Assembly (NCBI RefSeq): GCF_900205865.1 | Contig: NZ_LT906662.1 | Coordinates: forward strand, 1,749,411-1,813,410 | Direction: 5' to 3' | Length of the DNA: 64,000 nucleotides | From: Thermoanaerobacterium sp. RBIITD | Lineage (GTDB): Bacteria > Bacillota > Thermoanaerobacteria > Thermoanaerobacterales > Thermoanaerobacteraceae | Shown here: one piece after another, positions 13,547 through 43,138 of the stretch | Numbering within the stretch: position 1 is the stretch's first letter | Layout: each line of letters begins with the position of its first letter | Program-made: the position numbers and the translations under genes | The notes under the pieces: generated by a model | Databases searched by the model: none | The model's input: only the letters and a program-made list of their open reading frames with translations | What the model was told of the DNA's origin: nothing

Positions 13547-15679
13547 ATGCTTTATAAATTTATAAATAAAATAAGACTAAAAAATATTTATAGACAAATT
13601 AAAAAAGTAGAGAAATATAACGTCGAAAATATGTCTAATGAAGATTTGAAACAAGCATATAAAGAATCTCAAAATATTATTTGCAAACTTGCTGTTGTAC
13701 AAGAAGCAGTATATAGGATATTAAAAATAAGACCTTATAAAGAACAGTTAATGTGTGCTTATGCTTTATATAAAGGACATATAGCAGAAATGCCTACAGG
13801 AGAAGGAAAAACTTTGGTGGCAGCGATAGTAGCACTTTTATTAAATGATATCGTTCATATAGTGACAGTTAATGACTATCTCGCTAAAAGAGATTATATA
13901 TTAATGAAACCACTTTATGATTTCTTTGATGTTACAGTTGATTATAATTGCAAAAACAAAAACAAGAAGAATTTGTATGCTAATCAAGTGATATATACAT
14001 CAAGCAGTGAACTCATATTTGACTATTTAAGGAATGAATTAAAACCTGTATTTCAATTTCCTTTAAACAACGTGATAATAGATGAAATAGATTTTGTTTT
14101 GTTAGATAATGCATTATCAAAATTTTCAATTGCAACAAGTAAATACGAAAATATAAATATAAAAAATTTTAAAATAGCAAAAGAAATAATGCCTATGTTT
14201 AAGTGCAAAGAAGTTAGCAGAAGAAATTTTAACAACTATGTTGAAGAAGAAGATGTACATTGTGTTTATTCAGAATATTATGGTACTGCATATTTCACAG
14301 AAGAAGGAATGAAACTAATCGAGAAAATTTTTGGTAAAGATACGTTTTATAAAAACATTGATTTATATAAAGCACTTCTTGCTACAATTGAAGCAAATTT
14401 ATTGTTTAAAAACGGAAAAGATTATATAATTCAGGATAATCAAATTGTATTGATAAATCGTGCAAATGGAAGAAAAATGGTTAATAGTAAACTTGATGCT
14501 CAACTTCATACAGCAATAGAAATAAAGGAAAATGTTCCAGTGACATTAAAAAACTCTCTTAATTATAGTATGTCATATCAGGTATTCTTTAAAAAATATA
14601 AAAATATGGTTGGTATGAGTGGTACTATATATTCAGCATATAAAGAATTTGAAGAATTGTATAAAGTACCTACAGTTGTTATACCAAGTCATAATGAAAG
14701 TAAAAGAATAGATTATGCAGATTTAATATTTAATACAAAAAAAGAAAAATATGAATATTTGCTTTATAGTTTAAAATATAAAAGAAATAAAAATCAGCCT
14801 ATACTAATAATAACAGGAAATGATGAGGAATCAAATAAAGTACATGAAATGCTTAAAAATAATAATATTCACTCTAATCTCTTAAATTCATATACAGAAG
14901 ATTTGGAAGATGAAATAATAAGAAAAGCTGGAATACACGGTGCAATTACAGTATCAACAAACATGGTTGGGAGAGGAACTGATATAAAAATTGATGAAGA
15001 AACAAAAAAGAAAAATGGTTTAAAACTGATATGTTTAAATAGGTTTTTAGATAAAAGAATCGATGATCAAGTCAGAGGACGTACAGCTAGACAAGGTGAT
15101 ATTGGCGAATGCATATTTTATATATCTTTGGAAGATGACATATTTAATTATATGAATAGCAGCGAATATAAAAAATTTATCAAGTCTATTAAAACTACTA
15201 AAATAAATATAACAAAGATATTAGATAAAATACAAAAAGATATAAATTTAAGAAACTATAAAGTACGTAAAATAAATTACATTTTGGATTTTATATTAGA
15301 GCAGCAAAAATTATCTATTGAAGCATGGAAGGAATATTTAAAAGAAAAAGATATGAATTTTATTTTGAAAGACGTGGAAAATAAAAAAATCAAAAAATCA
15401 GTATACAATAATTATTTATCATTTGGAAAAGAACTTTCTACTAAACTTTATTTAAGTCTTGTCGATTTTATTATAAGTGAGCAATATTTATTATTACGAA
15501 GTGATATGGAAGATATAAAGCATTATTTGCAGTATTATAATTTATCTGAAAAAGATGCTATAACCGAGTATGAAAGAATATGCAATAAGCAAGTCGATAA
15601 GTTTAAAGACATCACTTTGGAACTGATTGAAAATCATTTTGCTACTGCCAAAATTGATAAAATTAGATGGGGAGGTTGA
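13547..15679 (+). CDS. Accessory SecA-type translocase ATPase
   Basis: 710 residues, shorter than housekeeping SecA (~800-900), and without the C-terminal zinc-binding tail. Walker A is MPTGEGKT (~83-90), Walker B is DEID (~179), and the second RecA domain carries STNMVGRGTDIKI and GRTARQGDIG. SecA proteins drive polypeptides through SecYEG. A second, element-borne SecA suggests a dedicated route for selected substrates. It lies between cpaB and three genes for exported or unusual proteins, so those surface proteins are plausible clients. The family call is secure; the client list is inference. Confidence 0.9.
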   Translation: MLYKFINKIRLKNIYRQIKKVEKYNVENMSNEDLKQAYKESQNIICKLAVVQEAVYRILKIRPYKEQLMCAYALYKGHIAEMPTGEGKTLVAAIVALLLNDIVHIVTVNDYLAKRDYILMKPLYDFFDVTVDYNCKNKNKKNLYANQVIYTSSSELIFDYLRNELKPVFQFPLNNVIIDEIDFVLLDNALSKFSIATSKYENINIKNFKIAKEIMPMFKCKEVSRRNFNNYVEEEDVHCVYSEYYGTAYFTEEGMKLIEKIFGKDTFYKNIDLYKALLATIEANLLFKNGKDYIIQDNQIVLINRANGRKMVNSKLDAQLHTAIEIKENVPVTLKNSLNYSMSYQVFFKKYKNMVGMSGTIYSAYKEFEELYKVPTVVIPSHNESKRIDYADLIFNTKKEKYEYLLYSLKYKRNKNQPILIITGNDEESNKVHEMLKNNNIHSNLLNSYTEDLEDEIIRKAGIHGAITVSTNMVGRGTDIKIDEETKKKNGLKLICLNRFLDKRIDDQVRGRTARQGDIGECIFYISLEDDIFNYMNSSEYKKFIKSIKTTKINITKILDKIQKDINLRNYKVRKINYILDFILEQQKLSIEAWKEYLKEKDMNFILKDVENKKIKKSVYNNYLSFGKELSTKLYLSLVDFIISEQYLLLRSDMEDIKHYLQYYNLSEKDAITEYERICNKQVDKFKDITLELIENHFATAKIDKIRWGG

Positions 15680-16593: not shown

Positions 16594-18309
16594 ATGAATT
16601 ATAAAAAAATAATAAAAGAATACCTATCTGACAATAAAATAGAGTTTGACACAGATAATAGTTTTACAAAAATAATAATTATAACAGATAAACAAGATAA
16701 ATGGTTCTATTTTGCAAAACGTGTAAATGAAAATAATAAAATTATAAATGTTAAAAGTGCAGATAAAGAACATATTGAAGTAATATTTGATAAGAAGAAC
16801 AAGAGTGCATATCAGCGGTTTTACAATGCACTTTTAAAAAAATATTACACTGTTGCGCCAAAATTAAAATATTTTTCAGTTTTGATAAAACCTACGCACC
16901 GATGTAATCTTGACTGCAAATACTGTTATGATAAACCTTACAGAGAGAGAATAAAAAATGACATGTCATTTATAACATTAGACAGGATATTTAAACTTTT
17001 GTCAGAATACACAGAACGATTGCAGCTTATTTGGCATGGTGGAGAGCCTACTATGGTTGGTATACAGTGGTATATAAAAGCTTATGAAGAAGTAATATCA
17101 AAATATCCGATGCTTGAAATAGATTCTTATATAATGTCTAATGGTATCAATTATAATGAAAAATGGTTTAACATTTTTAAGCAATATAAGATTTCTCCTG
17201 GTATGTCTTACAATGCAATGTATCAAGAAAAATTAAGAGTATCGAATCAGAAAAATCAAAATTCAGAAGCTGATAAAAAAATAAATCAAAAGTTGGAAGA
17301 TATATTAAAACTTTCTTCTGAAATTGGTCCTAAAATAGGTACAATAGATGTAATAACAAAAGAAAATTATAAGGATCAAATTCAAATATATGAATACTAT
17401 AAAAAAATTGGCATTAGTACCAGTATGAATATGGTATTTCATACAAAACAGACAGAAAAAAATGATCTAGAATTATCGCCTGAAAAATATGAAAAGGAAT
17501 TTATAAAGTATTTTAAATACTGGCTGTATGATAAAAATGGTACTTATGAACGTTCCGCTGCTGAAATGCTTTCAATTGTTATTGGCGATATGAATGGCGC
17601 AACTTGCAGAAACCACGATTGCCGTTATCATTGGATAGGTATAAATCCATTAGGAGAAATTTATCCTTGTGACAGATACTATCCTGAAAAATATAAAATG
17701 ACTACAGTATTTGATATAAATAGTATTGATGAAGCATTTAACACTAAAGGCTATGAAACTTTTGTAAAAGAAATACAACAGCGTTTTGATACAACTTGCA
17801 AAAAGTGCGGTTATTGGTTTGCCTGTCATGGAAGTTGTAATGCTTCTGCTATCGAGTCTACTGGAAGTGCTGCTGGAGTTGAAAAAAACTATTGTGAGTT
17901 TTTTAGGCGTGCATATAATGATGTCTATGATATTTTAAGAGATGTGGATATAATACACGATGAAAACCTAAATCCCTATGCAAGAGATATTATGATAAAT
18001 AAAGGATTTTATAGCGTTAAGGATATTTATGATGTATTAGAAGAACTTGGCAGGAATATCACATTAACATATGATAAAAATGATCTTTTAAATTGTTCTG
18101 AATATAAAGTTTTTAGAGGCATTAATTTTATGACAGATACAGGTACAAAGTATAGTTTTCATGTTGATATTATTAAATCGCAGAAAACTAAAGATATAAA
18201 AGTTAATGAACAAAAGCGAAAGGAGGACTTGATAAAATATTTGATGGAGGTGGCAAAAGATGCCTATAATGACCGAGTTTCAGAATTTTGCAGTAATGGC
18301 AGTGTTTGA
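16594..18309 (+). CDS. Radical SAM / SPASM peptide-modifying enzyme
   Basis: 571 residues. The 4Fe-4S cluster motif is CNLDCKYC (near residues 104-111 from this start), followed by HGGEP. A SPASM-type Cys cluster lies at ~340-430 (CRNHDC, PCDRYY, CKKCGYWFACHGSC, later NYCEFF). The ~90-residue N-terminal extension and ~130-residue tail are unassigned. SPASM proteins typically install radical modifications in ribosomal peptides or proteins. Its gene overlaps the start of the His-Xaa-Asp repeat protein by 50 bases, making that protein the likely substrate. ATG 16591 is an alternative start, but 16594 has better spacing from GGAGG. Enzyme class is certain; chemistry and substrate are inferred. 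Confidence 0.9.
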   Translation: MNYKKIIKEYLSDNKIEFDTDNSFTKIIIITDKQDKWFYFAKRVNENNKIINVKSADKEHIEVIFDKKNKSAYQRFYNALLKKYYTVAPKLKYFSVLIKPTHRCNLDCKYCYDKPYRERIKNDMSFITLDRIFKLLSEYTERLQLIWHGGEPTMVGIQWYIKAYEEVISKYPMLEIDSYIMSNGINYNEKWFNIFKQYKISPGMSYNAMYQEKLRVSNQKNQNSEADKKINQKLEDILKLSSEIGPKIGTIDVITKENYKDQIQIYEYYKKIGISTSMNMVFHTKQTEKNDLELSPEKYEKEFIKYFKYWLYDKNGTYERSAAEMLSIVIGDMNGATCRNHDCRYHWIGINPLGEIYPCDRYYPEKYKMTTVFDINSIDEAFNTKGYETFVKEIQQRFDTTCKKCGYWFACHGSCNASAIESTGSAAGVEKNYCEFFRRAYNDVYDILRDVDIIHDENLNPYARDIMINKGFYSVKDIYDVLEELGRNITLTYDKNDLLNCSEYKVFRGINFMTDTGTKYSFHVDIIKSQKTKDIKVNEQKRKEDLIKYLMEVAKDAYNDRVSEFCSNGSV

Positions 18310-21028
18310 TACTACTGCTTTTCAAAATTTCATTAAAAGTGTGCAAGATACTCAAAGAAGTCAACCGCAGACTGAAATAGTAAACACGCATACGGATACT
18401 AATCCGCATACAGATACTAATCCTCATACTGACAATCTCGGTACGTATAATCAGTATTCACAGCACAGTGATACAGGACATTATCATTCTGACAGTACAC
18501 CACATGCTGACAGTCCAGGAAGTCATACTGACAGCACTCCTCATACAGATACACATTCAAATTCCAATAGTTATAGCAATAATAATTCAGATCATTATGA
18601 TTCGCCAGGTGGCAGTCATACAAATACGCATTATGATGGTAATACACACATGGATAATGGTCAAGCTACTGGAACACATTATAATACACATGATGATCGT
18701 GCTGTCCATAGTGATGGATATGCTCATACTGATAGGTATAATCAATGGAATACTCATACAGATACTAACGGAACTCATACTGACAGTACATCACATAATG
18801 ATTATCCCGGCAGTCATAGTGACAGTCCTTCTACTCATAGTGATTCCAATCCGCATACTGATTATACTCCGCATACAGATACAACAACACATACAGATAC
18901 AGCAACACATAACAATACTGGATTTAACCATGATAATTTTGTTCCGTCATCGCCAGCATTTTTCAATGTAGATTCAGTGTTAAAGGGAACTGTAACAATT
19001 GGTCTTTATAGTTATGACAAAAATATAGATGGGTATGGAACACAAGATACAGAAAGTAAAACAGTATATTATGATTTATATATAAGAAAAGTGATGAATT
19101 TGGATGGTTCCAGCAGTGTATCAGCATGGCAAACGCTTATAAATAATCTAATTCAGGATGCAGATGGAGGACTTACGTATAATCTAAATACTGTTGATCC
19201 TTTAGGAATTGGAAATACTGTAGTAGGTGCATGTGATGGATATTATGAAATCAAAGCAGTAGCAAGAAATTCTCCACTAAACGGGGTAACTTTCCAAAGT
19301 TCAGAAAAGGTAATAACAGTATTAATACAACAAAATGCAGCACCCGAGATTACAGTTCAAAACGGAAATGAATTCATTAACTTTATATTTAGTTATGATG
19401 GTGCAGTTAATCCGTCTGGTGAATATAAAACATATGATAAATTATATCCAGATCTGCCACAGATTCATAATGATGTAATAATAACACCACATAATGATAT
19501 ATCAACACACACAGATAATATTATACAACCGCATCAGGATATTCAGTCACAACATGCAGATATACCAGCATCACAGCATAATGATGATGTTGTGCACCAA
19601 GATATAGGTAAGAGTTATGCTCATCAAGATATAACACCTCATACTAATACTCCTGCAACTCAACATGCTGATAATATGTCACAACATATTGATATAGCAT
19701 CACAACATCAAGATACGACATCAATCCATACTGACCAACCCTCGCAACATAACAATACAAATAGTCTAATGAATAATTATCAAAATTGTATATTTGTAAA
19801 ATTTACAATGAATGATCCAGATACTGACAATTGGCAGAAAGGACAGGCATATTTGATTTCCAGCGATGGTTCAGTTATTCCTAATACTACAGTAGACATT
19901 GTTTGGGACAATGGAAGCACAATAACTGCTTCAGACGGACAGAATAAAACAGGTTACGCTTTTATACCAGCAAGTGCATTTACTTCACAAGGTATAAGCT
20001 ATAAAAATGCAAAAGTTGTATTAAAAGTGCAGGATTTTCTTGACTCTAACTGTACAAAGCCAGCAGGTGCAACGGTAGTACAATCAACAATATCAAGTAC
20101 AGACCAGACACAATTACTTGTTAATATTGACGTTGTCAAACCACATGCAACATTATTGCAAGCAAAGAAAAATTCAGACAACAGTCTGACTGCTTACTAC
20201 TATATTATTGATGATTTTCCTAATAATGTTCAAACAGCCGAATATGCAGTAACTAATTCATCATCAAAGCCACAAACATGGCAGACTGCTGTGCCTTATC
20301 AAACAATAACTAATACAATTAATCGAGATGGTACTTGGTATATACATTATCATGCAATTGATAAACTTGGCAACGAAACTTATGGATATTTTGGACCTTA
20401 TACAGTTGACGTAACAGCACCTACAATAAATGCTTCATACACTATTAACAGCAATAACATAACAATAAATGTAACAGCTTCTGATCAGACTACAGGAGTG
20501 CAATATATTACTGTAGAAGGTATTGGAACGTCTAATAATTCAAACAAAGTAAATCCATATACGGCAACATTTACTGTACCTTTAGTTCAGCAAACTTATA
20601 CAATTGATGCATATGACTATGCAGGCAATAAGGCAACTACTACACTTACCGTAGTTCCAATGTCATTAACTCCATCAATGCAAACTGTTTATGCAGCAGG
20701 GCAGGCAATGATAGTGCAAGTAAATGTCACTGGAAATCCTGACAGAGTAACAGCTCAAATGTGGTATAATTCAAATGATTACGGAAATACTGGTACAACA
20801 TCTCTTGTAAATAGAGGAAACGGTCTGTGGAGTACAAGGCACAATTCATCTGAAGGTTACGATACAGTTGTTATAATTCCTAAAAATACTCCTGATGGAA
20901 CTTATAACATAACAGTTACAGCCAACAAGAGCGTAAACGGTCAATTAATAACAAAATCAATAACAATACCAATAACAGTAAAAGGAACAATATATGACTA
21001 CTATCATAGTGAGACCAATGGACAATAG
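18260..21028 (+). CDS. Large His-Xaa-Asp repeat protein, likely radical SAM substrate / surface protein
   Basis: 922 residues. The short leader (1-43) contains no signal peptide. His-x-Asp cluster 1 spans ~44-225 (22 H-x-D by hand count, mostly HTD and HSD). A beta-rich domain follows (~228-390), then H-x-D cluster 2 (~400-500; 12 counted: HND, HQD, HAD, HID, HTD). Immunoglobulin-like beta domains (~520-800) and a C-terminal module (~805-922) ending near YDYYHSE follow. That last module recurs at the end of the protein at 39572. Ribosome site GGAGGTGG lies inside the radical SAM gene. The logic resembles His-Xaa-Ser radical SAM systems, but the motif and maturase set differ. The function of the repeats, perhaps metal binding or crosslinking, is unknown. 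Confidence 0.85.
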   Translation: MPIMTEFQNFAVMAVFDTTAFQNFIKSVQDTQRSQPQTEIVNTHTDTNPHTDTNPHTDNLGTYNQYSQHSDTGHYHSDSTPHADSPGSHTDSTPHTDTHSNSNSYSNNNSDHYDSPGGSHTNTHYDGNTHMDNGQATGTHYNTHDDRAVHSDGYAHTDRYNQWNTHTDTNGTHTDSTSHNDYPGSHSDSPSTHSDSNPHTDYTPHTDTTTHTDTATHNNTGFNHDNFVPSSPAFFNVDSVLKGTVTIGLYSYDKNIDGYGTQDTESKTVYYDLYIRKVMNLDGSSSVSAWQTLINNLIQDADGGLTYNLNTVDPLGIGNTVVGACDGYYEIKAVARNSPLNGVTFQSSEKVITVLIQQNAAPEITVQNGNEFINFIFSYDGAVNPSGEYKTYDKLYPDLPQIHNDVIITPHNDISTHTDNIIQPHQDIQSQHADIPASQHNDDVVHQDIGKSYAHQDITPHTNTPATQHADNMSQHIDIASQHQDTTSIHTDQPSQHNNTNSLMNNYQNCIFVKFTMNDPDTDNWQKGQAYLISSDGSVIPNTTVDIVWDNGSTITASDGQNKTGYAFIPASAFTSQGISYKNAKVVLKVQDFLDSNCTKPAGATVVQSTISSTDQTQLLVNIDVVKPHATLLQAKKNSDNSLTAYYYIIDDFPNNVQTAEYAVTNSSSKPQTWQTAVPYQTITNTINRDGTWYIHYHAIDKLGNETYGYFGPYTVDVTAPTINASYTINSNNITINVTASDQTTGVQYITVEGIGTSNNSNKVNPYTATFTVPLVQQTYTIDAYDYAGNKATTTLTVVPMSLTPSMQTVYAAGQAMIVQVNVTGNPDRVTAQMWYNSNDYGNTGTTSLVNRGNGLWSTRHNSSEGYDTVVIIPKNTPDGTYNITVTANKSVNGQLITKSITIPITVKGTIYDYYHSETNGQ

Positions 21029-21072: not shown

Positions 21073-21720
21073 ATGATAATATCAATATTTTCACCAAAAG
21101 GTGGAGTAGGAAAAACAACGTTAACTTTGGCACTTGCAAATGTAATTTCAAAAGAGAAAAGAACATGTGTGGTTGAATATGACTTTTCTCCTGGTGATTT
21201 TCCTGCTTTATTAAGTGTTTCTGAAACTAAAAATATTTTAAATGCGTTAAATGATTTAGATGGTTCAATACAAAGACCAGAAGGAAGAAATTATGATGTC
21301 ATAGTAGGTGCATATCCTGATGACTATGAAAAAATTGGTTCAAATGATGTTATACGGCTTGTAACTGAATTAGAAAAAAGATATGATGTAGTCTTATTTG
21401 ATATTCAACCAGGCTTTATAGAAAGCTGTATAGACGTCATGGGAAAATCCGAAAAAGTTATATTGGTAGTAGAAGATGAATTAAGAGTCGCTGCAAGAGT
21501 AAATAGTTTTTTGGATTGGCTAAAAATTAACGAATTAAGTGATTTAAGCAATTATTTTTACATTAAAAACAAAAGCGTGTCTAATCAGTTACAATACATT
21601 GACAAGATACGTTATAAACTTCCGATTTTGTATTCTGTGCCTTTCATAAAAAAGTTAAAAGGTATAGATGACAAACATTTAATAAAATACATGACGAAAG
21701 CAAAGGAGGCAATCTTGTGA
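21073..21720 (+). CDS. TadZ/CpaE-like MinD-family ATPase
   Basis: 215 residues with the deviant Walker A SPKGGVGKTTLTLAL at the start, a D-x-SPGDFPA switch-like segment and VVLFDIQPG as Walker B. TadZ/CpaE proteins place the Tad machine at a cell site. Here no receiver domain is attached. It overlaps cpaF by four bases. It is highly similar at the N-terminus to the protein at 44974. Confidence 0.85.
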   Translation: MIISIFSPKGGVGKTTLTLALANVISKEKRTCVVEYDFSPGDFPALLSVSETKNILNALNDLDGSIQRPEGRNYDVIVGAYPDDYEKIGSNDVIRLVTELEKRYDVVLFDIQPGFIESCIDVMGKSEKVILVVEDELRVAARVNSFLDWLKINELSDLSNYFYIKNKSVSNQLQYIDKIRYKLPILYSVPFIKKLKGIDDKHLIKYMTKAKEAIL

Positions 21721-22901
21721 GCTTAACAGAAAGAATTTCAGAAATAAAAAAAGGTGTAAATTTCTATAAGGATAAAATGTTGCTGGAATATGTACGTAAT
21801 AAGGTTTTGCAGTATGATGTCGCAGGCAATGTGACGGAAACTAGAAAGTTGTGTGATAAGTTTGTTGAAGAATATTGCAATGAACACTACACGGATGTGC
21901 CTGATAAAAACTTGTATGATTATGTGTATAATCTATTATTCGGATTAGGACCTGTTGAAAAGCACTTAAAAAATCCTGATGTAACTGATATATGGGTAAT
22001 GGGAACGAACATTATCTATATGGAAAACGGTGAGAAAAAAGATGACACAGAAACTTTTATGAGTAATGAAGATGTGATCCGTGTAATAGAAAAAATTGCA
22101 GGACAGACAAAACCTCCACAGACTATTAATGCACAGTTCCCTTCGGCAGATGTTGAGCTATACGACGGTTCACGTGCACTTTTGATAGTACCTCCTGAAT
22201 CGTTAGTACCAGTGATTACAATAAGAAAGCATACAAGCAATGCAAAAAGCTTGGAAGAATTGAAAAGCGGATATATAAACTTGACAGATGACATGATAGA
22301 GTATTTTAAAAATATTGTAACGGAAAGAAAAAACATACTTGCGGTAGGACAGACAGGTTCGGGTAAAACAACATTTTTGAATGGCCTTACATTTTATATT
22401 CAGCCTAAACACGTTGTAGCACTGCTTGAAGATACAAGAGAAATGAGCATACCTTTAAAGTATGTGTACAGCTTCAAAATAAGGAAAGGAACAGAAGATA
22501 CAAAGCCTATTACATGGACAGATATACTTAATGATTGTTTAAGAGCGAATCCTAACAGAATTATAATAGCAGAAATACGTACTCCTGAAGCTGCTTATGA
22601 ATTTTTGGATACTTTAAATTCAGGACATAAAGGTTCAATGACAACAATACATGCTTCAAGTACGGTATTAGCACTTCAAAAGCTTGAGATGAAGATAAAA
22701 GAGTATAAAGACATGGATGACCGTTCTTTAAGGACATTAATATCAAATACAATTGACGTAATAGTATATCTTGATGTTTTAGAAAATGAGGAAGGCGACA
22801 ATATTGGCAGAGTTATAAAAGAAATAGTTGAGGTAAAAGGACTAAATTCTGATAACACGTATGATTTAGATTATGTTTATAAATACGAAGAAAGCAGGTG
22901 A
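21717..22901 (+). CDS. CpaF/TadA secretion ATPase (Tad block 1)
   Basis: 394 residues from a GTG start (AAAGGAGG upstream). Walker A is GQTGSGKTTFLNGL (~204-217). ALLEDTREM, AEIRTPEA and the SGHKGSMTTIHAS segment are diagnostic of type II/IV CpaF-VirB11 ATPases. It powers pilin assembly by the TadB/TadC platform encoded immediately downstream. It is complete and has a divergent paralogue at 36579. Confidence 0.93.
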   Translation: MSLTERISEIKKGVNFYKDKMLLEYVRNKVLQYDVAGNVTETRKLCDKFVEEYCNEHYTDVPDKNLYDYVYNLLFGLGPVEKHLKNPDVTDIWVMGTNIIYMENGEKKDDTETFMSNEDVIRVIEKIAGQTKPPQTINAQFPSADVELYDGSRALLIVPPESLVPVITIRKHTSNAKSLEELKSGYINLTDDMIEYFKNIVTERKNILAVGQTGSGKTTFLNGLTFYIQPKHVVALLEDTREMSIPLKYVYSFKIRKGTEDTKPITWTDILNDCLRANPNRIIIAEIRTPEAAYEFLDTLNSGHKGSMTTIHASSTVLALQKLEMKIKEYKDMDDRSLRTLISNTIDVIVYLDVLENEEGDNIGRVIKEIVEVKGLNSDNTYDLDYVYKYEESR

Positions 22902-22905
22902 TATT

Positions 22906-23811
22906 TTGATAATAAGTGTGTTTGCTGCTGTATTGGTCTTTTTATTAGGACTTACTTTTCTTGCAATAAACGATTATAAAAAGTACCGCATACAGATACG
23001 TTTAAACAGGCAATTAATAAAGCCTGAAGAAGTACATTACAGTATGTTTCAAGGACTTGGAAAGTTTTATGATAAGCTTACTGAAAGCCTTGTCAGTGCT
23101 GGTATAAAAATAAAAACTGATGATTTTATACTTTATTTTTTATATGTTTCACTGACACTTTTTGTTATTACTATGATTAAGTTTGGTTTGATGTATTCAA
23201 TACTTTCTATAGTTGTGTTAGTGGTACTGATTAAATTTTTCTTAAATAACAGAAAATCAAGCATAAGATTTAAGACTGAACAGGAATTTGGCGTTTTTGC
23301 AACTGATTTGGCTGTTGTGCTGCGTGTCAATCCTAATTTTTTATCTGCTATTTCTGATGTAACAAAGTATACTAAACCTATATTAAGAGAGCATTTAGAC
23401 AAGGTAATAACAAATGTTAATTCAGGTATGACTATAGAAGATGCACTGTTAAGGTTTAAAGACGATGTTATATATTCAAGCATAATAACTTCGTGGATTG
23501 ACAGTATCTTATATGCTATGGAGACAGGTGCAAATTTAATTGATGTATGTGCAAGTTCGGCTGAAAAAGTAAATAAAAAACTGCAAAGAGGTCTTAAGGT
23601 AAAATCTCTTACATCAAATACAAAAGGTTTAATAATTGCTATTTTAGGCATTATCTTAATATTTATACCAATTTTGATTTCAAGTTCTCCTGACTTTCAA
23701 TCGGCGTATTCAACAGTAATGGGTCATATAATTCTATCCATTGTTTTAGGCAGTTTTGTGATTACGACTTACTTGATTTTGAAATCAATAGACAAGATGG
23801 TAAAAATGTGA
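22906..23811 (+). CDS. TadB-like platform protein (Tad block 1)
   Basis: 301 residues from a TTG start four bases after cpaF (ribosome site GCAGGTGAT). It has an N-terminal membrane segment, a pair of segments at ~80-120 and a C-terminal pair at ~245-295, flanking the cytosolic T2SF-type helical domain (LAVVLRVNPNFLSAISD... METGANL). This is the usual TadB arrangement. Confidence 0.82.
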   Translation: MIISVFAAVLVFLLGLTFLAINDYKKYRIQIRLNRQLIKPEEVHYSMFQGLGKFYDKLTESLVSAGIKIKTDDFILYFLYVSLTLFVITMIKFGLMYSILSIVVLVVLIKFFLNNRKSSIRFKTEQEFGVFATDLAVVLRVNPNFLSAISDVTKYTKPILREHLDKVITNVNSGMTIEDALLRFKDDVIYSSIITSWIDSILYAMETGANLIDVCASSAEKVNKKLQRGLKVKSLTSNTKGLIIAILGIILIFIPILISSSPDFQSAYSTVMGHIILSIVLGSFVITTYLILKSIDKMVKM

Positions 23812-23821
23812 GGTGTTCTTT

Positions 23822-24604
23822 ATGATAGATAAATTGACAAGTTTTTTTAAGCCTTTTATAAAAAGGAGAATTTCTGAAGATTTTTTGAGTTCAATGGATC
23901 GGAACATAAAAACAATAGCAGGTGTAGACATAGCTTTGCCTGATACGAAAGGTTATCTTCAAGTTTTTGTTTTTCGTGTTAAAGACGTGTACGAAATGCT
24001 TTCTGTCCTTGCAGTGATGATATTTTTATCTGTTGTTTTTATTATGTTAGGTATTTTGAGAGGTATGGCAGCAAACGGTATTGTAATGGCAATTGCACTT
24101 ATAGCATTGACACTTTCAAGATATACAGGCAAACTTAAAAAGTTTAAAGATCAGTTTCAAAGAGAGCTTCCTGATGTAATAGATGCTATGCTTCAAGGCT
24201 TGAAGGTTGGAACGCCTGTTGAAAGTGTTTTAGATTATGTATCAAAATCTAAAAAGAGCATAGTTACTCCTTTTTTAAAAGAGGTAGTTATGAGGATAAA
24301 TGCAGGAGAATCTCTTCGTGACGCTTTAGACAATGTTTCACCAAAGACATTGTCGCCTGATTTTCAGCGTATAGCAAGGATTTTGTCAATGAGATCTCAA
24401 ACAACAACAGATATAGTGAGTTCATTAGAAAGACTTCAGGAAAACATGGAACTTGAGCTTGAAACAAAAATAATATCTATGGCAGAAAATGCGCCTATAA
24501 AATATACACTTCATATATTTGTAGGCTACGTAATTCCGTTTATACTTGTAATTGTGTATCCTCTGATATTGATGATATTCAAGTTCATGGGTCAAGTCAG
24601 TTGA
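23822..24604 (+). CDS. TadC-like platform protein (Tad block 1)
   Basis: 260 residues. The T2SF domain has FQRELPDVIDAMLQGLKVG and AGESLRDALDNV, with membrane segments at ~55-100 and a hydrophobic C-terminus (FVGYVIPFILVIVYPLILM). It pairs with TadB to form the inner-membrane platform. ATG 23822 follows GAGGTG; the upstream in-frame GTG at 23813 lies in the ribosome site. Confidence 0.82.
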   Translation: MIDKLTSFFKPFIKRRISEDFLSSMDRNIKTIAGVDIALPDTKGYLQVFVFRVKDVYEMLSVLAVMIFLSVVFIMLGILRGMAANGIVMAIALIALTLSRYTGKLKKFKDQFQRELPDVIDAMLQGLKVGTPVESVLDYVSKSKKSIVTPFLKEVVMRINAGESLRDALDNVSPKTLSPDFQRIARILSMRSQTTTDIVSSLERLQENMELELETKIISMAENAPIKYTLHIFVGYVIPFILVIVYPLILMIFKFMGQVS

Positions 24605-30516: not shown

Positions 30517-30927
30517 ATGGAAAAGAATAACTTAATTCATGCAAGGACATGTGTATACAATGTTAATTATCACATCGTTTGGTCTACAAAATATAGAAAG
30601 GAGGTATTGACTGAAGATATACAAGAATATCTCAAATCGTTGTTTGGTGAAATAGCAAATGACAAGGGATTTATAATAGCTTCAATGGAAATAATGCCAG
30701 ACCATGTACATGTATTTGTATCCGCACATCCGCAAGTAGCACCTTCATACATTGTTAAAATGCTTAAAGGAATAAGTGCCAGAAGAACATTAATGAAGTA
30801 TCCTGAACTGACAAAACAATTATGGAAAGGACATCTTTGGAATTCATCATTCTATATCGAAACAATTGGTTCCATATCTGAAGATGTAATAAAAAAATAC
30901 ATTGAACATCAAAAGACAAGGGGGTGA
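30517..30927 (+). CDS. tnpA: TnpA, Y1 transposase, copy 2
   Basis: 136 residues, with HUH motif MPDHVHVFV and Tyr in SSFYIETIG, as in copy 1. Substitutions are scattered (KISPSYIAKM versus QVAPSYIVKM), while the catalytic residues are unchanged, indicating purifying selection rather than decay. Confidence 0.95.
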   Translation: MEKNNLIHARTCVYNVNYHIVWSTKYRKEVLTEDIQEYLKSLFGEIANDKGFIIASMEIMPDHVHVFVSAHPQVAPSYIVKMLKGISARRTLMKYPELTKQLWKGHLWNSSFYIETIGSISEDVIKKYIEHQKTRG

Positions 30928-30933
30928 AATGAT

Positions 30934-32574
30934 ATGAGTGCAAAAACTAAAAGTGTATTTTTGTATGGTAAACCTACCAATATAAAATTAACTGAAATAT
31001 TAACTATGCAAAAACTGTATACCCAACTTGTTAATACTTACATTGACCTTTTAATTAATAATAAAAATTTATACTTAACAATTTTTCTTAACAATAAAAA
31101 AGATAGTGAGATACGTCAATTCGAAAAAAATCAGCGAAATAAGTGTGGATTAAATTATCTTGGTTCGGCTTTGGGACAAAACGCATTTGATCATGCATTA
31201 AAAGAGTTGCATAATCATTTTATCAGAATAAAAAACTATATGTATGGCTTATACGTGAATAAGGGCGATATTAGCAATTTTATATCATCAACGACATTAT
31301 TAAATGCTTCATTACTTAAACTCAATCCTTACGCTGAATTAAATCGATTAATAGATGTTAATCAAAAAATTATTGATGAGAAAAATGGTAAATGCACAAA
31401 AGAATATGAAAATAAGATATTGTTCTATAAAGAATTGCTTGCTATGCTTTATAAGCATACTAGTGAAGAAATACAATTCATGATGTCAACAGTACGCACA
31501 ACATTTTTTGAAGAACTTGCTGCAAGAAAAATGCCTGAAATAAAAGACGCACCAATACAATTAGATTCAAGACTGTGCAAGATAGAAAAGGCAGATCATA
31601 TAAAAGCGGATTATGTAATACGTGTTAAAACACTCAAAAAAGGAAAATGGATTGACATACCACTCAAGACATCCAATGATTCGGCGAGAAGGCTTAACCA
31701 ATATAAAAATGGATCACCCACAATAAAAGTCTTAAAATCAGGTTTGATAAGAGTAAGCGTGCCAGTAGAAAAGAAAACAAAAGAATATAAATATGACAAA
31801 ATCATTGGTATAGATGTCGGAGAAACAGAACTTATTCATACATCAGAAAACAAAATATATGGCAGTTTCAAACAAATGATAGAAATATATGATTTAACTG
31901 TTCTTCCTAAATTATCGAACAGAAGCAAATTAAAAGCACTAATGAGAAAATACAGGAAAGAAATCAAAAAGGCGAATGATGAAAACAAAAAACAGAAACT
32001 AAGGGAAAAAATAGGGAATATTAATAAAATGCTGCAAGGAAGAAAGTCTCTGAACCGTGTTCTGAGATCATATAATCATGCAGTCAATAAAGAAATATCT
32101 TCTGCCATTAAAGGATTTATAAATGACGTAAAAGGTAAAGAAATACTTGTATCAATGGAAGATCTGAATATACTGGAATTTGACCGTGGCAGGAAAAGCA
32201 ACAGACGTGATACTAACTGGGCAAGAGGACAGCTGCTTAAAAAGATGCAGGAAAAACTGGAATGGCACGGGGTAAAATTTGTAGGAGTCGAACCTGCATA
32301 TACATCACAGGAATGTCCCATATGTCATAATGCAAACAAGAAAAATCGAAACGGTAAACAATTCAAATGTATATGTTGCGGATATGAAGATGACGCAGAT
32401 CACGTAGGTGCAATAAATATAGCAAAGAGAGCTGAAGACAAAGAAATAGCAGAAATAGTGGAGAAATACAAATATAATAAAAAATATAGGCATAATAAGC
32501 TAAAAATGTTGCTTAATGAAAGACATAATAAATATATGGATAGCGTAGCTATTACGCAAATAATAGCCATATGA
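30934..32574 (+). CDS. tnpB: TnpB RNA-guided nuclease, copy 2
   Basis: 546 residues, the same length as copy 1. RuvC segments GIDVGETEL, VSMEDLNI and DDADHVGAINI and the zinc ribbon CPICHN...CICCGY are all intact. It starts six bases after tnpA (GGGGGTGAAATGAT). Predicted to be active; its guide would come from sequence beyond 32764. Confidence 0.93.
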   Translation: MSAKTKSVFLYGKPTNIKLTEILTMQKLYTQLVNTYIDLLINNKNLYLTIFLNNKKDSEIRQFEKNQRNKCGLNYLGSALGQNAFDHALKELHNHFIRIKNYMYGLYVNKGDISNFISSTTLLNASLLKLNPYAELNRLIDVNQKIIDEKNGKCTKEYENKILFYKELLAMLYKHTSEEIQFMMSTVRTTFFEELAARKMPEIKDAPIQLDSRLCKIEKADHIKADYVIRVKTLKKGKWIDIPLKTSNDSARRLNQYKNGSPTIKVLKSGLIRVSVPVEKKTKEYKYDKIIGIDVGETELIHTSENKIYGSFKQMIEIYDLTVLPKLSNRSKLKALMRKYRKEIKKANDENKKQKLREKIGNINKMLQGRKSLNRVLRSYNHAVNKEISSAIKGFINDVKGKEILVSMEDLNILEFDRGRKSNRRDTNWARGQLLKKMQEKLEWHGVKFVGVEPAYTSQECPICHNANKKNRNGKQFKCICCGYEDDADHVGAINIAKRAEDKEIAEIVEKYKYNKKYRHNKLKMLLNERHNKYMDSVAITQIIAI

Positions 32575-39554: not shown

Positions 39555-39571
39555 GTTAGGAGGTGAGAATT

Positions 39572-42500
39572 GTGAAGATTATAAGTACATTAAAAGAAAA
39601 GAAAAAATATTTTATAGTATCTTTAATTATTTTATTATTTGTTATAATTTTGATTTTCGCTTATGCAAGTAGTAGTCTAACATTAACTGCAACGCCTAAT
39701 TCACAAGGAAATTATATTCATTTGCAGTGGAATGTACCTGATAGTACACAACCATATACCTATATGTTGTATATGAAAAAACCTGGAGATTCAGGATTTC
39801 AAACAATACCTGCAAAAAGTCAAGTTAAAGTTTTGAACGTATATCCACCTTCTGCTTATACAATATCATTTTCAGGAAATTGGACAAGAGCAAGTGGATA
39901 TGGGTATAACAGTCAATATGGATACGAAAGTACTAATCATACAAATAAATCAACTTCTTCAACATCATTAACAGTAAACATGCCATCATCAGGAACAATA
40001 TCTTTTTGGTATATGGTTAGTAGTGAAACTAATTATGATTTTATTCACTTCTATATTGACGGGCAGGAAAAACTTGAAAACAGTGGTAATTTGGGCTGGC
40101 AACAAGTATCATTTTCTGTATCAGCAGGACAGCATACATTTACATGGTCGTATACAAAAGATATATCAGTAAGCAGTTATAATGATACTGCTTATATTGA
40201 CAATGTCAGTATAACAGGTATAGGTACTTTTACATTTGAAAGTTCAGACTCACTGCAAATAGGTGGGCAAATACCTAATATCACATTTACAAACTGGCAA
40301 GGACAAACATATACATTGCCAAAGTCAGCAAGTTTAAAGATGTGGATGGAACAGCCTAATAGTGATGATCCCAAAGGTTATGGCAAGGGTTTAATAAGTG
40401 TTGATGCAGTATCTATAACAGATTTTAATAATAATCCTAATGCTTATCTTAAAAATACTGATGGCTCTTGGAAATATGATGTTGTATATTTTGGTGCCTG
40501 GGATAATAATAATGGTTTTGATTTAAGTGCTTCTGCTGAAAATATGGTAGAAACATTTATACAGAATGGCAGAGGCATATTATTAGGACATGATACCATT
40601 GCTCATGCTGTTAGTTTACCATATAATGCAACTCCATTTGAACAGAATTTCCAAAAATTAGCACAATACTTAAACATTCAGGAAGTACCGTCACAATATA
40701 ACGGTATGGCACCACCGCAACTACCTAATACTTATCAAACATGGGGTAGTACAAAAGTAACTATCAGCAAAAAAGGTTTGCTTACCAATTATCCGTGGCA
40801 AATTGGCGATGTTGGAACTATTTTAAGTGTACCATATACACATACAGGTTTTGAAATTGCTAATGGCGATATATGGTTAAGATTTGCTGATATAGAACCT
40901 TTTATTGCTTATGATATTAATGGAAGTCCATATTATCCTAATATAGGTTGGACAGATTCTATTATAAATGCATGGCAGCAAAATCCTGCACTGAATATGA
41001 ATTGGTATCTTACAACATGGAACAATACAGCCATGATTCAGACAGGTCATAGTAACGGTGATGCAACACCTGATGAACAAAAAATACTTGCAAATACTTT
41101 ATTTTACCTTGCACAAGTAACAGACCAAACAAGTTGGGATGATCACATGGGACAAGATGTAACATCACCAGATAAACCTAAAATAACGAATATCCAAAAG
41201 AATGGTAATAATATTAATATTACTCTTTCTGATAATGATGAAGGCACAACATATAGTTATTATGTAGAAGCAACTGGAATGAACAATGGTACAAAAATAG
41301 ATTCTAATACGGTAACAACCACAATAACATCAGGTATAAAAGGTTATTCAGTCGTAATAGATAATAATCCTAATACTGTTCCTGATAATACTATTGATAC
41401 AACAAGTTCCAACTTTTCAACCACATATTCAGGAAGTAATTTTTATGTACACGTAAAAGCTATTGATAATGCAGGTAATGTATCTGATGTATATACGTAT
41501 TGTTATTCAAAACCATTTATTACAGCAATTCCAGTGCCTTCTCAAAATGCTATACAGCTCAATTGGGGCATAAATGATACTTCGCAGACATATTTATACA
41601 TGGTATATAAGAAAGATGTTAATGATTCGGAATTTCAAACTATACCTGTTAAAGATCACTTAAAGGTTTTAAATGTATATCCTTATATACCTATATTGCA
41701 AGATTGGATGAATAATTACGGACAAGGTAAAATATCAGTTGATAGTGTGTCGATTGATACTTTCAATAGCAATCCTTCGATTATATGGAATTATGATGTT
41801 GCTGTTTTTGGATTTGCTGATAGCAATAATTCTAAAGATATAAATATTCAAGCAAAAAATGAATTGACAAATTATATTGAAAGTGGGAGAGGTGTCCTAT
41901 TTGGGCATGATACGATTAGAGTTTTTGCATTGCCTAATTTTACTTCATTAGATACATTTATTAATATGCAATCTTTTGATAGTTCAAGTGGGATACCTTG
42001 GGTTAACGGATATATGAATGATGGTGTTGCTGGAAATAATTGGTCAGGACATTCGCTGGTTAGAATCACAAAAAAAGGACTTTTAACCAATTATCCTTGG
42101 CAAATTGGAGATGTTGGAACTGATCTTGTGGTACCTTATACACATGATGTATATCAAGTAGCTAATGGTGATATATGGATGAAGTTTGTAGATCAAAATG
42201 ATCCTAATATGACGAACAATGCTAATTTTTATCTAACAACGTGGAACAATACAGCTATGATACAGACGGGACATAGTATTTATCCAGGTGTACCTCCATC
42301 ACAATATGCTACTGAAGATGAACAAAAACTAATAGCAAATACTATATTTTATCTTGGGCAAGTAACAACAGATACAAGTTGGTTAGACCATTCAGCTCAA
42401 GACTTGACACCTCCTGATACAGTTAGTGGTATAACAGCATCACAAAAAGACAATCAGATTAATATTAGTTGGAATGTTCCGAAAGATAATGGAAACACAT

Positions 42501-43138
42501 ATGAGTATTATGTGCAGGCGACAGGTAATTCTGATAATTTAAAAAGACTATCCGACACAGTAAGTGCAACAATTACAACAGGTATAAAAGGTTATTCTTA
42601 TGTAATAGATCAAAATCCTAATACAGAGCCTGATAATACTATAGATACAACATTAAACAATATAACAGTATCTATTAATAAAGAAGGAACATATTATATT
42701 CATATAAAAGCAATAGATAATGCTGGCAATGCTTCTCAAACAGCAACATACCAGTTTTTTGTACAATCACCAATAACAATATCAACTAATATGCAAACAA
42801 CTTATGCAGCAGGTCAGGCAATAAAAGTTAATATAACGACAACAGGACCAGTGTATAGAGTAACAGCACAAATGTGGTATTCATCAAATGAATATTCTTC
42901 TACTGGTATAACTGATCTTGTAGGTGGTAATGGAAGTTGGCATACAAGACAAAGCAGTTCTGAAGGGTATGACACAGTAGTAATAATTCCTAAAAATACT
43001 CCAGATGGAACGTATAATATAATCATTACGGCGTATGCAAAATATCCTGATGGAACAACGGACACAAAGTCAATAACAATACCAATAACGGTAAAAGGAT
43101 CGATATATGATTACTACCATAGCGAAATTAACAATTAA
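39572..43138 (+). CDS. Large surface protein with duplicated DUF5057-like units and shared C-terminal module
   Basis: 1188 residues from GTG 39572 (AGGAGGTGAGAATT upstream; a GTG at 39563 lies within the ribosome site). A signal/anchor helix (YFIVSLIILLFVIILIFAYA) leads. Two long units each contain FQTIP...KVLNVYP, LLTNYPWQIGDVGT, WNNTAMIQTGHS and LANTLFYLAQVT-like segments. A CBM-like jelly-roll segment (~95-225, HFYIDGQEKLENS ... TAYIDNVSITG) is inserted only in the first unit. The C-terminal ~115 residues are shared with the His-Xaa-Asp protein (SEGYDTVVIIPKNTPDGTYN, ending YDYYHSE). Function unknown; likely appendage-associated. Confidence 0.8.
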   Translation: MKIISTLKEKKKYFIVSLIILLFVIILIFAYASSSLTLTATPNSQGNYIHLQWNVPDSTQPYTYMLYMKKPGDSGFQTIPAKSQVKVLNVYPPSAYTISFSGNWTRASGYGYNSQYGYESTNHTNKSTSSTSLTVNMPSSGTISFWYMVSSETNYDFIHFYIDGQEKLENSGNLGWQQVSFSVSAGQHTFTWSYTKDISVSSYNDTAYIDNVSITGIGTFTFESSDSLQIGGQIPNITFTNWQGQTYTLPKSASLKMWMEQPNSDDPKGYGKGLISVDAVSITDFNNNPNAYLKNTDGSWKYDVVYFGAWDNNNGFDLSASAENMVETFIQNGRGILLGHDTIAHAVSLPYNATPFEQNFQKLAQYLNIQEVPSQYNGMAPPQLPNTYQTWGSTKVTISKKGLLTNYPWQIGDVGTILSVPYTHTGFEIANGDIWLRFADIEPFIAYDINGSPYYPNIGWTDSIINAWQQNPALNMNWYLTTWNNTAMIQTGHSNGDATPDEQKILANTLFYLAQVTDQTSWDDHMGQDVTSPDKPKITNIQKNGNNINITLSDNDEGTTYSYYVEATGMNNGTKIDSNTVTTTITSGIKGYSVVIDNNPNTVPDNTIDTTSSNFSTTYSGSNFYVHVKAIDNAGNVSDVYTYCYSKPFITAIPVPSQNAIQLNWGINDTSQTYLYMVYKKDVNDSEFQTIPVKDHLKVLNVYPYIPILQDWMNNYGQGKISVDSVSIDTFNSNPSIIWNYDVAVFGFADSNNSKDINIQAKNELTNYIESGRGVLFGHDTIRVFALPNFTSLDTFINMQSFDSSSGIPWVNGYMNDGVAGNNWSGHSLVRITKKGLLTNYPWQIGDVGTDLVVPYTHDVYQVANGDIWMKFVDQNDPNMTNNANFYLTTWNNTAMIQTGHSIYPGVPPSQYATEDEQKLIANTIFYLGQVTTDTSWLDHSAQDLTPPDTVSGITASQKDNQINISWNVPKDNGNTYEYYVQATGNSDNLKRLSDTVSATITTGIKGYSYVIDQNPNTEPDNTIDTTLNNITVSINKEGTYYIHIKAIDNAGNASQTATYQFFVQSPITISTNMQTTYAAGQAIKVNITTTGPVYRVTAQMWYSSNEYSSTGITDLVGGNGSWHTRQSSSEGYDTVVIIPKNTPDGTYNIIITAYAKYPDGTTDTKSITIPITVKGSIYDYYHSEINN

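Follow-up and report, generated by a model that had tools for sequence, protein, structure and literature searches.

Triceptide enzymes are radical S-adenosylmethionine (SAM) enzymes that join residues i and i+2 of a peptide, and the bonds listed for them include C7(Trp)-Cβ(Asn/Asp), C3(Tyr)-Cβ(Asp) and C2(His)-Cβ(Ala or Arg) (PMC11002830). For one of them, ChlB, the paper title, as it appears in the reference list of PMC12636437, gives the description multiple cyclophane synthase. In the Thermus phages Cumys and phiMa, a radical SAM module has been proposed to modify DNA, while the gene beside it, which encodes a repeat protein, was left unexplained and its product undescribed (PMC11437467). 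The present analysis concerns a gene pair in a stretch of 64,000 nucleotides (the window) of Thermoanaerobacterium sp. RBIITD, contig NZ_LT906662.1, in which a radical SAM/SPASM gene adjoins a gene for a 922-residue protein containing two arrays of His-x-Asp (H-x-D) motifs. The pair is probably a maturase and its large substrate, in which the enzyme would close His ring-to-Asp/Asn beta-carbon cyclophanes, about 34-41 per protein, before the product is exported to act at the cell surface. The coupling of enzyme and substrate is well supported; the His-Asp bond, the number of rings per protein, export by a SecA2-like translocase and a mechanical role are inferred.

The two genes overlap by exactly 50 bp on the forward strand, and both the coordinates and the domain content agree with the first-pass annotation of the window. 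The radical SAM gene opens with two adjacent ATG codons, the second of which lies at position 16594, and the start of the array gene is preceded by a ribosome site rated good (TGGAGGTGGCAAAAG-ATG). In Pfam, the 572-residue enzyme matches Radical_SAM (PF04055, E 1e-11) and SPASM (PF13186), both above their cut-offs. The H-x-D motifs of the array protein number 34, of which 22 lie within residues 44-211 and 12 within residues 403-490; 7 H-x-N motifs accompany them. The count first made by hand is exact, the middle residues are as then described (mainly T/S in the first cluster, N/Q/A/T in the second), and the number lies far above that in shuffled versions of the protein (at most 11 H-x-D, mean 3.9, 2000 trials). 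Asp or Asn (D/N) stands two residues after the array histidine in 27/28 cases in cluster 1 and 14/14 in cluster 2; at other offsets it is found at most 7/28 times. With D or N as the third residue in 41/42 motifs, the repeats are not those of His-x-Ser proteins. An AlphaFold2 run on the array protein with a three-row alignment gave a predicted local distance difference test score (pLDDT) of 32, too poor for a model, so no fold is claimed for this protein.

Selection on the motifs can be read from the single close relative of the pair. Among the 36 other genomes of the class, a close homologue of the enzyme (85% identical) is found in one, G028, of the same genus, where the island from a cpaB-like gene through the giant surface proteins is syntenic. 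The G028 array protein keeps array 1 and wholly lacks array 2, which is therefore dispensable. Between the two array 1 sequences, His is conserved in 26 of 27 motifs; the +2 residue is likewise confined to D or N in 26 of 27, the two having replaced each other several times (HTN to HVD, HMD to HTN, HNN to HTD, HSN to HSD), and one motif has turned WNN, an aromatic swap. The middle residue is conserved in 19 of 27 motifs and the linkers at 70 of 102 positions. His and D/N are thus the selected positions, the middle residue being freer.

The association of enzyme and array was followed in both directions. When the enzyme was searched for in 398 genomes of the phylum, enzymes of 26-33% identity were reached, and the Asp form of the HTD-array pattern occurs in two of these genomes, exactly the two that hold the enzyme and array pair. 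Genome G337 has three related enzymes in a phage-tail-like locus, along with a 385-residue protein packed with H-x-[DN] and Y-x-[DN]. In G212, G236 and G283, which belong to another genus, and in a Dichloromethanomonas metagenome-assembled genome (L048), the enzyme lies in Tad-type loci and adjoins a 240-310-residue protein with YSNYSNYSNYGDW-type repeats. Alignment-based scans then covered 80 bacterial or archaeal loci and 80 viral loci: dense aromatic-x-[DN] proteins adjoin the enzyme in many of the viral loci, and arrays were found in none of the ordinary sulfatase-maturase loci of the same scan, nor at six Clostridia enzymes that group near the window enzyme (L043-L046, L049, L051). Some related loci have further components. 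A peptidase U32-like gene stands between the enzyme and a Y-x-N array gene in Tad loci (L039:9141-10343, with equivalents in L035-L038 and L048). Short proteins of 73-101 residues with Y-x-D or H-x-D motifs, which resemble ordinary precursor peptides, are encoded near related enzymes (L071:2547-2768, L050:8034-8339). In prophage-type loci (L034:8004-14049, L123:4364-7794), several adjacent radical SAM genes surround one Y/H-x-[DN] array protein; one of these genes is of another subtype (MNxxLxNxCNLNCxYCFA), and a division of labour among the enzymes is possible.

The reverse test made no use of the enzyme and looked in viral contigs for triple His-Thr-Asp/Asn patterns. The pattern matched 97 viral stretches, 46 of them with true arrays, and a related enzyme was present in the piece or in the whole contig for 31 of the 46 (Fisher 3.8e-9). 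When restricted to distinct arrays with intact flanks, the enzyme was nearby or on the same contig in 22/28, versus 1/31 controls, which were pattern hits without arrays (Fisher 1.4e-9). This restriction, which took out near-duplicates, arrays at contig edges and hits of low complexity, was made by hand after the data had been seen, and the raw 31/46 is given for that reason. Set aside as probably unrelated were the low-complexity hits L214, L217, L252, L253 and L277 and the near-perfect tandem repeat L209; the contig-edge arrays L204, L223 and L230 were set aside as undecidable. No arrays lie near the related radical SAM genes of Vibrio phage D479 and two human-gut phage records, so enzyme type alone does not predict an array. 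The condition by which the first-pass annotation would have been refuted, that repeat proteins commonly lack a radical SAM neighbour, thus mostly did not hold: 22 of 28 viral arrays go with the enzyme, six do not, and the HTD pattern is confined to enzyme-holding genomes.

The motif rule extends to 37 non-redundant enzyme-linked arrays. Of their 1063 array histidines, 95% carry D or N at +2 (860 D, 153 N), compared with 5-14% at offsets 1 and 3-5, and the +2 values for Y, F and W are 46, 52 and 37%; the absolute percentages are inflated because the arrays were chosen by aromatic-x-[DN] density, and the informative parts are the offset profile and the aromatic swap. When mapped on a tree of 74 enzymes, linkage to an array requires 9 changes versus 25 in shuffles and falls in several separate groups, and the link between enzyme and array has therefore arisen or been kept several times. 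Among array-linked enzymes, 26/61 end in at least two H-x-D motifs of their own, compared with 0/133 of the others; the window enzyme has no such tail. Examples of tailed enzymes are L240:2321-3556, L236:103-1680 and L224:1353-2786, and the tails perhaps reflect self-modification or substrate mimicry.

The pairing is also present in cultured Thermus phages. Cumys, phiMa and phiLo encode the enzyme together with array proteins of 54, 53 and 75 H-x-D/N motifs, respectively; the Cumys protein (Cumys_13) fits its motifs into 344 residues, that of phiMa is phiMa_29, and that of phiLo is phiLo_137. In Cumys and phiMa the array gene immediately precedes the enzyme gene, downstream of baseplate and tail collar genes, and in phiLo it lies about 4.4 kb from the enzyme on the opposite strand. 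The array points to a protein as the substrate.

The window enzyme is kin to cyclophane-forming and sulfatase-maturase SPASM enzymes. It has an extra N-terminal domain (approximately residues 1-85), a SAM barrel whose CxxxCxxC motif comprises C105, C109 and C112, and SPASM cysteines. Its AlphaFold2 model is fairly confident (mean pLDDT 80.9), with a low-confidence C-terminal region at residues 490-572. The fold of residues 93-470 in this model matches those of anSMEcpe (Z 33.8) and, over 346-347 residues, ChlB (Z 32.0), and ChlB is the sole solved structure matched by sequence (E 1e-8). The second-best family match is NF041298 DynA (134 bits), and other NCBIfam matches (bits/cut-off) are YhhB 80/445, AmcB 78/425, GrrM 75/310 and FxsB 52/370. 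No His-Xaa-Ser (Hxs) family is found among the best 25 of its 39 NCBIfam matches, and its relatives reach only some 43-78 bits with HxsB, for which the cut-off is 370. No sulfatase gene was found among the neighbouring genes, to which the scan was limited.

The surroundings of the pair are collected in Table 1. The accessory SecA and the Tad locus of the first-pass annotation are both there, in that a SecA-like gene and T2SSE/T2SSF genes flank the pair. The SecA2-like protein has a close homologue (84%) in G028 only, the rest of the class offering only SecA matches of 33-37%; the window genome (G000) has two SecA matches, the second, at 36%, elsewhere on the chromosome. The protein does not reach the SecA2 family TIGR03714 (396 bits versus a cut-off of 930). 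Export of the array protein by this SecA2 is likely, because its close kin occur only in the two genomes with the pair and no signal peptide is visible by eye in the 922-residue protein. The C-terminal domain of the array protein recurs at 43-45% identity in giant proteins of four relatives without the enzyme (G018, G024, G032, G033), and the array protein is taken to be a surface or appendage part because it shares this domain with giant surface-type proteins. The association with the Tad pilus is suggested by gene position. It stands for the window and for some relatives and does not extend to a general tie, as the related pairs lie mostly in phage tail loci; the earlier idea of an appendage tip is a guess. 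Elsewhere in the island, G028 encodes an extra 831-residue protein (L018:3882-6377) with the shared C-terminal domain beside its giant protein, where the window has no counterpart. Between two Tad gene sets of the window, at 30517-32574, lies an IS200/IS605-type pair of a TnpA-like protein (136 residues) and a TnpB-like protein (546 residues), the latter bearing a Cas12f1-like TNB domain.

Table 1. Coordinates of the gene pair, its arrays, the neighbouring genes and the cultured-phage arrays (window positions unless a locus is named)
Feature	Coordinates	Strand	Basis or remarks
SecA2-like accessory SecA, 710 residues, candidate exporter	13547..15679	+	Family and domain matches
Secreted-type protein with copper amine oxidase N-terminal-type domain PF07833	15683..16525	+	Pfam; syntenic in G028
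Radical SAM/SPASM gene, 572 residues	16591..18309	+	Radical_SAM and SPASM domain matches
His-x-Asp array gene, 922 residues, predicted substrate	18260..21028	+	Open reading frame and motif counts
Array 1, residues 44-226	18389..18937	+	22 H-x-D and 5 H-x-N; middle residue mainly T/S; conserved in G028 orthologue
Array 2, residues 403-499	19466..19756	+	12 H-x-D and 2 H-x-N; middle residue N/Q/A/T/I; missing from G028 orthologue
C-terminal domain of array protein, residues 799-921	20654..21022	+	Common to the 1191-residue protein at 39563-43138, 67% identity
Tad/Flp-type assembly genes: MinD/ParA-like ATPase, T2SSE ATPase, two T2SSF membrane proteins	21073..24604	+	Syntenic in G028, 95-98% identity
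Giant immunoglobulin-like surface protein, 1191 residues	39563..43138	+	C-terminal domain of the array protein; no H-x-D arrays
Phage arrays beside or near radical SAM enzyme	Cumys L300:6961-9251; phiMa L302:4964-7251; phiLo L301:13807-15231		

In the proposed mechanism, the enzyme would act in the cytosol, abstracting a beta-carbon hydrogen from the Asp (or Asn) of each H-x-D/N motif, and the beta carbon would then be joined to the imidazole of the His that stands two positions earlier. The product would be a surface-type protein with a series of three-residue cyclophanes, each lowering the mass by 2 Da, in two linkers that are probably disordered. These rings would stiffen the linkers and shield them from proteases, and the modified protein would be exported, probably with the SecA2 found only alongside the pair, to work at the cell surface beside the Tad pilus. 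The His-Asp ring is favoured from motif and kinship because a triceptide enzyme would be expected to leave just such a footprint: aromatic-x-[D/N] arrays in which H, Y, F and W replace one another, D and N do likewise, and the middle residue is free. Of the modification or crosslinking first suggested for the repeats, crosslinking has the best support as the chemistry.

Several observations weigh against this reading. The best NCBIfam match of the enzyme is the sulfatase maturase TIGR03942 (142.8 bits versus a cut-off of 349.45), its best predicted fold match is likewise a sulfatase maturase (anSMEcpe), and it misses all curated full-length family cut-offs. An Asp after the SPASM-region Cys is the catalytic base of sulfatase maturases, and the enzyme retains it (C360-D361), where most of its phage relatives have C-G. 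The known triceptide substrates are short peptides, and we know of none that is a 922-residue protein. Within bacteria, the close pair is known from two genomes only. No radical SAM gene can be recognised at six of the array loci with intact flanks (L227, L231, L237, L239, L244, L282), all of them fragments, and a His-Asp cyclophane is not in the pairs listed by PMC11002830. Three of the six loci (L227:6030-7457, L244:3395-5518, L282:2774-4583) are fragments of related phages in which the array is followed by a gene for a 358-388-residue protein, possibly an alternative enzyme; family searches with this protein, Pfam included, found nothing.

The main rival is another radical reaction on the same H-x-D/N motifs, such as a dynobactin-type link from a His nitrogen to the beta carbon, an epimerisation, or an alteration of the Asp beta carbon that a second enzyme finishes. 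DynA is the best family match for several array-linked relatives besides being the second best for the window enzyme, and the phage modules include a third gene, which encodes DUF483 and in some cases methyltransferase-like domains. The free exchange of H, Y, F and W at the first position nevertheless suits a ring-carbon crosslink better than a bond to imidazole nitrogen, epimerisation would need no aromatic residue two positions upstream, and no DUF483-like neighbour of the window pair was found; such chemistry is considered unlikely. It is improbable that the arrays are metal-binding His/Asp strings while the radical SAM gene serves another substrate, for example as a sulfatase maturase. His and Asp are common metal ligands and anaerobic sulfatase maturases are the best matches by both fold and family, but the linkage appears whichever of the two is searched for and recurs in several groups of enzymes, many array-linked enzymes bear H-x-D tails themselves, and ordinary sulfatase-maturase loci in the same scan lack arrays. 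The arrays of relatives have F, W or Y where the window has H, and because F and W cannot stand in for His as a ligand, the metal-binding purpose put forward at first is not upheld as a shared function. Formylglycine formation on the middle residue was also considered and dropped, as that residue varies freely.

That the module modifies DNA, as published for Cumys and phiMa, draws on homologues near deazapurine DNA-modification genes in cyanobacteria (PMC11437467). Its neighbour, however, encodes a 344-residue protein with 54 H-x-D/N motifs directly after tail and baseplate genes, and the enzyme groups with peptide-modifying SPASM enzymes, which leaves this proposal very little probability. 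Equally little is given to a divergent member of the Hxs system, which has the same plan of a radical SAM maturase with a His-x repeat protein and whose H-x-S motif is also compatible with an aromatic-X2-X3 rule. The HxsB family is outside the best 25 matches of the window enzyme and scores far below cut-off in its relatives, a single maturase is present rather than two, and the third residue is D/N rather than Ser. The first-pass placement of the pair as an enzyme-substrate system of its own kind, apart from Hxs, is supported by these points.

The pairing of such enzymes with arrays in pilus and phage tail loci suggests an undescribed way to put small rings into large structural proteins. A wider form of the cyclophane reading, for which the balance is even, is that poly-cyclophane structural proteins form a general class in bacteria and tailed phages, comprising pilus-associated and tail proteins in which a dedicated SPASM radical SAM enzyme would turn each of tens of aromatic-x-[D/N] motifs into a strained ring, yielding fibres stiffened by covalent bonds and resistant to proteases. 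Radical SAM ring closure, known from short peptides, would then also build large structural proteins, including parts of phage virions; a function would be suggested for members of the phage radical SAM family phrog_1802, the published guess of DNA modification in Thermus phages would be replaced, and a route would open to genetically encoded, stiff, cyclised protein fibres. The Hxs question would become more approachable too, because H-x-S obeys the same three-residue rule. A literature search, with subscription papers mostly outside its scope, turned up no description of such arrays together with radical SAM enzymes, and novelty is provisional.

Compared with described systems, the pair is closest to the triceptide enzymes (XncB, OscB/GrrM, MscB, YxdB, HaaB, YhhB and ChlB; PMC11002830), which are SPASM radical SAM enzymes like the one described here. 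Among enzymes with a solved structure, ChlB is the closest to it in sequence; in fold, ChlB ranks as the second family. The motifs share an aromatic residue at i and X3 at i+2, where Asn/Asp is known for Trp and Asp for Tyr, and His is a known first residue; the differences are the unlisted pairing of His with Asp/Asn, an enzyme below all family cut-offs, and a 922-residue multidomain substrate with 34-41 motifs in place of a short precursor peptide. The anaerobic sulfatase maturases, although best by fold (anSMEcpe, Z 33.8) and by NCBIfam (143 bits), differ in that the window enzyme is far under their cut-off (349) and has another gene context. The Hxs systems (HxsA/B/C) likewise place a radical SAM maturase beside a His-x repeat protein; here D/N replaces Ser, the maturase is single, no Hxs profile reaches its cut-off, and the context is Tad pilus and phage tail. 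The TvgA/TvgB system, which yields poly-cyclopropylglycine (PMC9062424), resembles the pair in the repeated action of a sulfatase-maturase-type radical SAM enzyme on a repetitive substrate and differs in that the Val of TVGG peptide repeats is modified, which is another motif and another product. The Cumys/phiMa module (PMC11437467) has the homologous enzyme type next to a protein densely set with H-x-D, in a region of structural genes, and is set apart from the window pair by its DUF483 gene and by its published reading as DNA modification.

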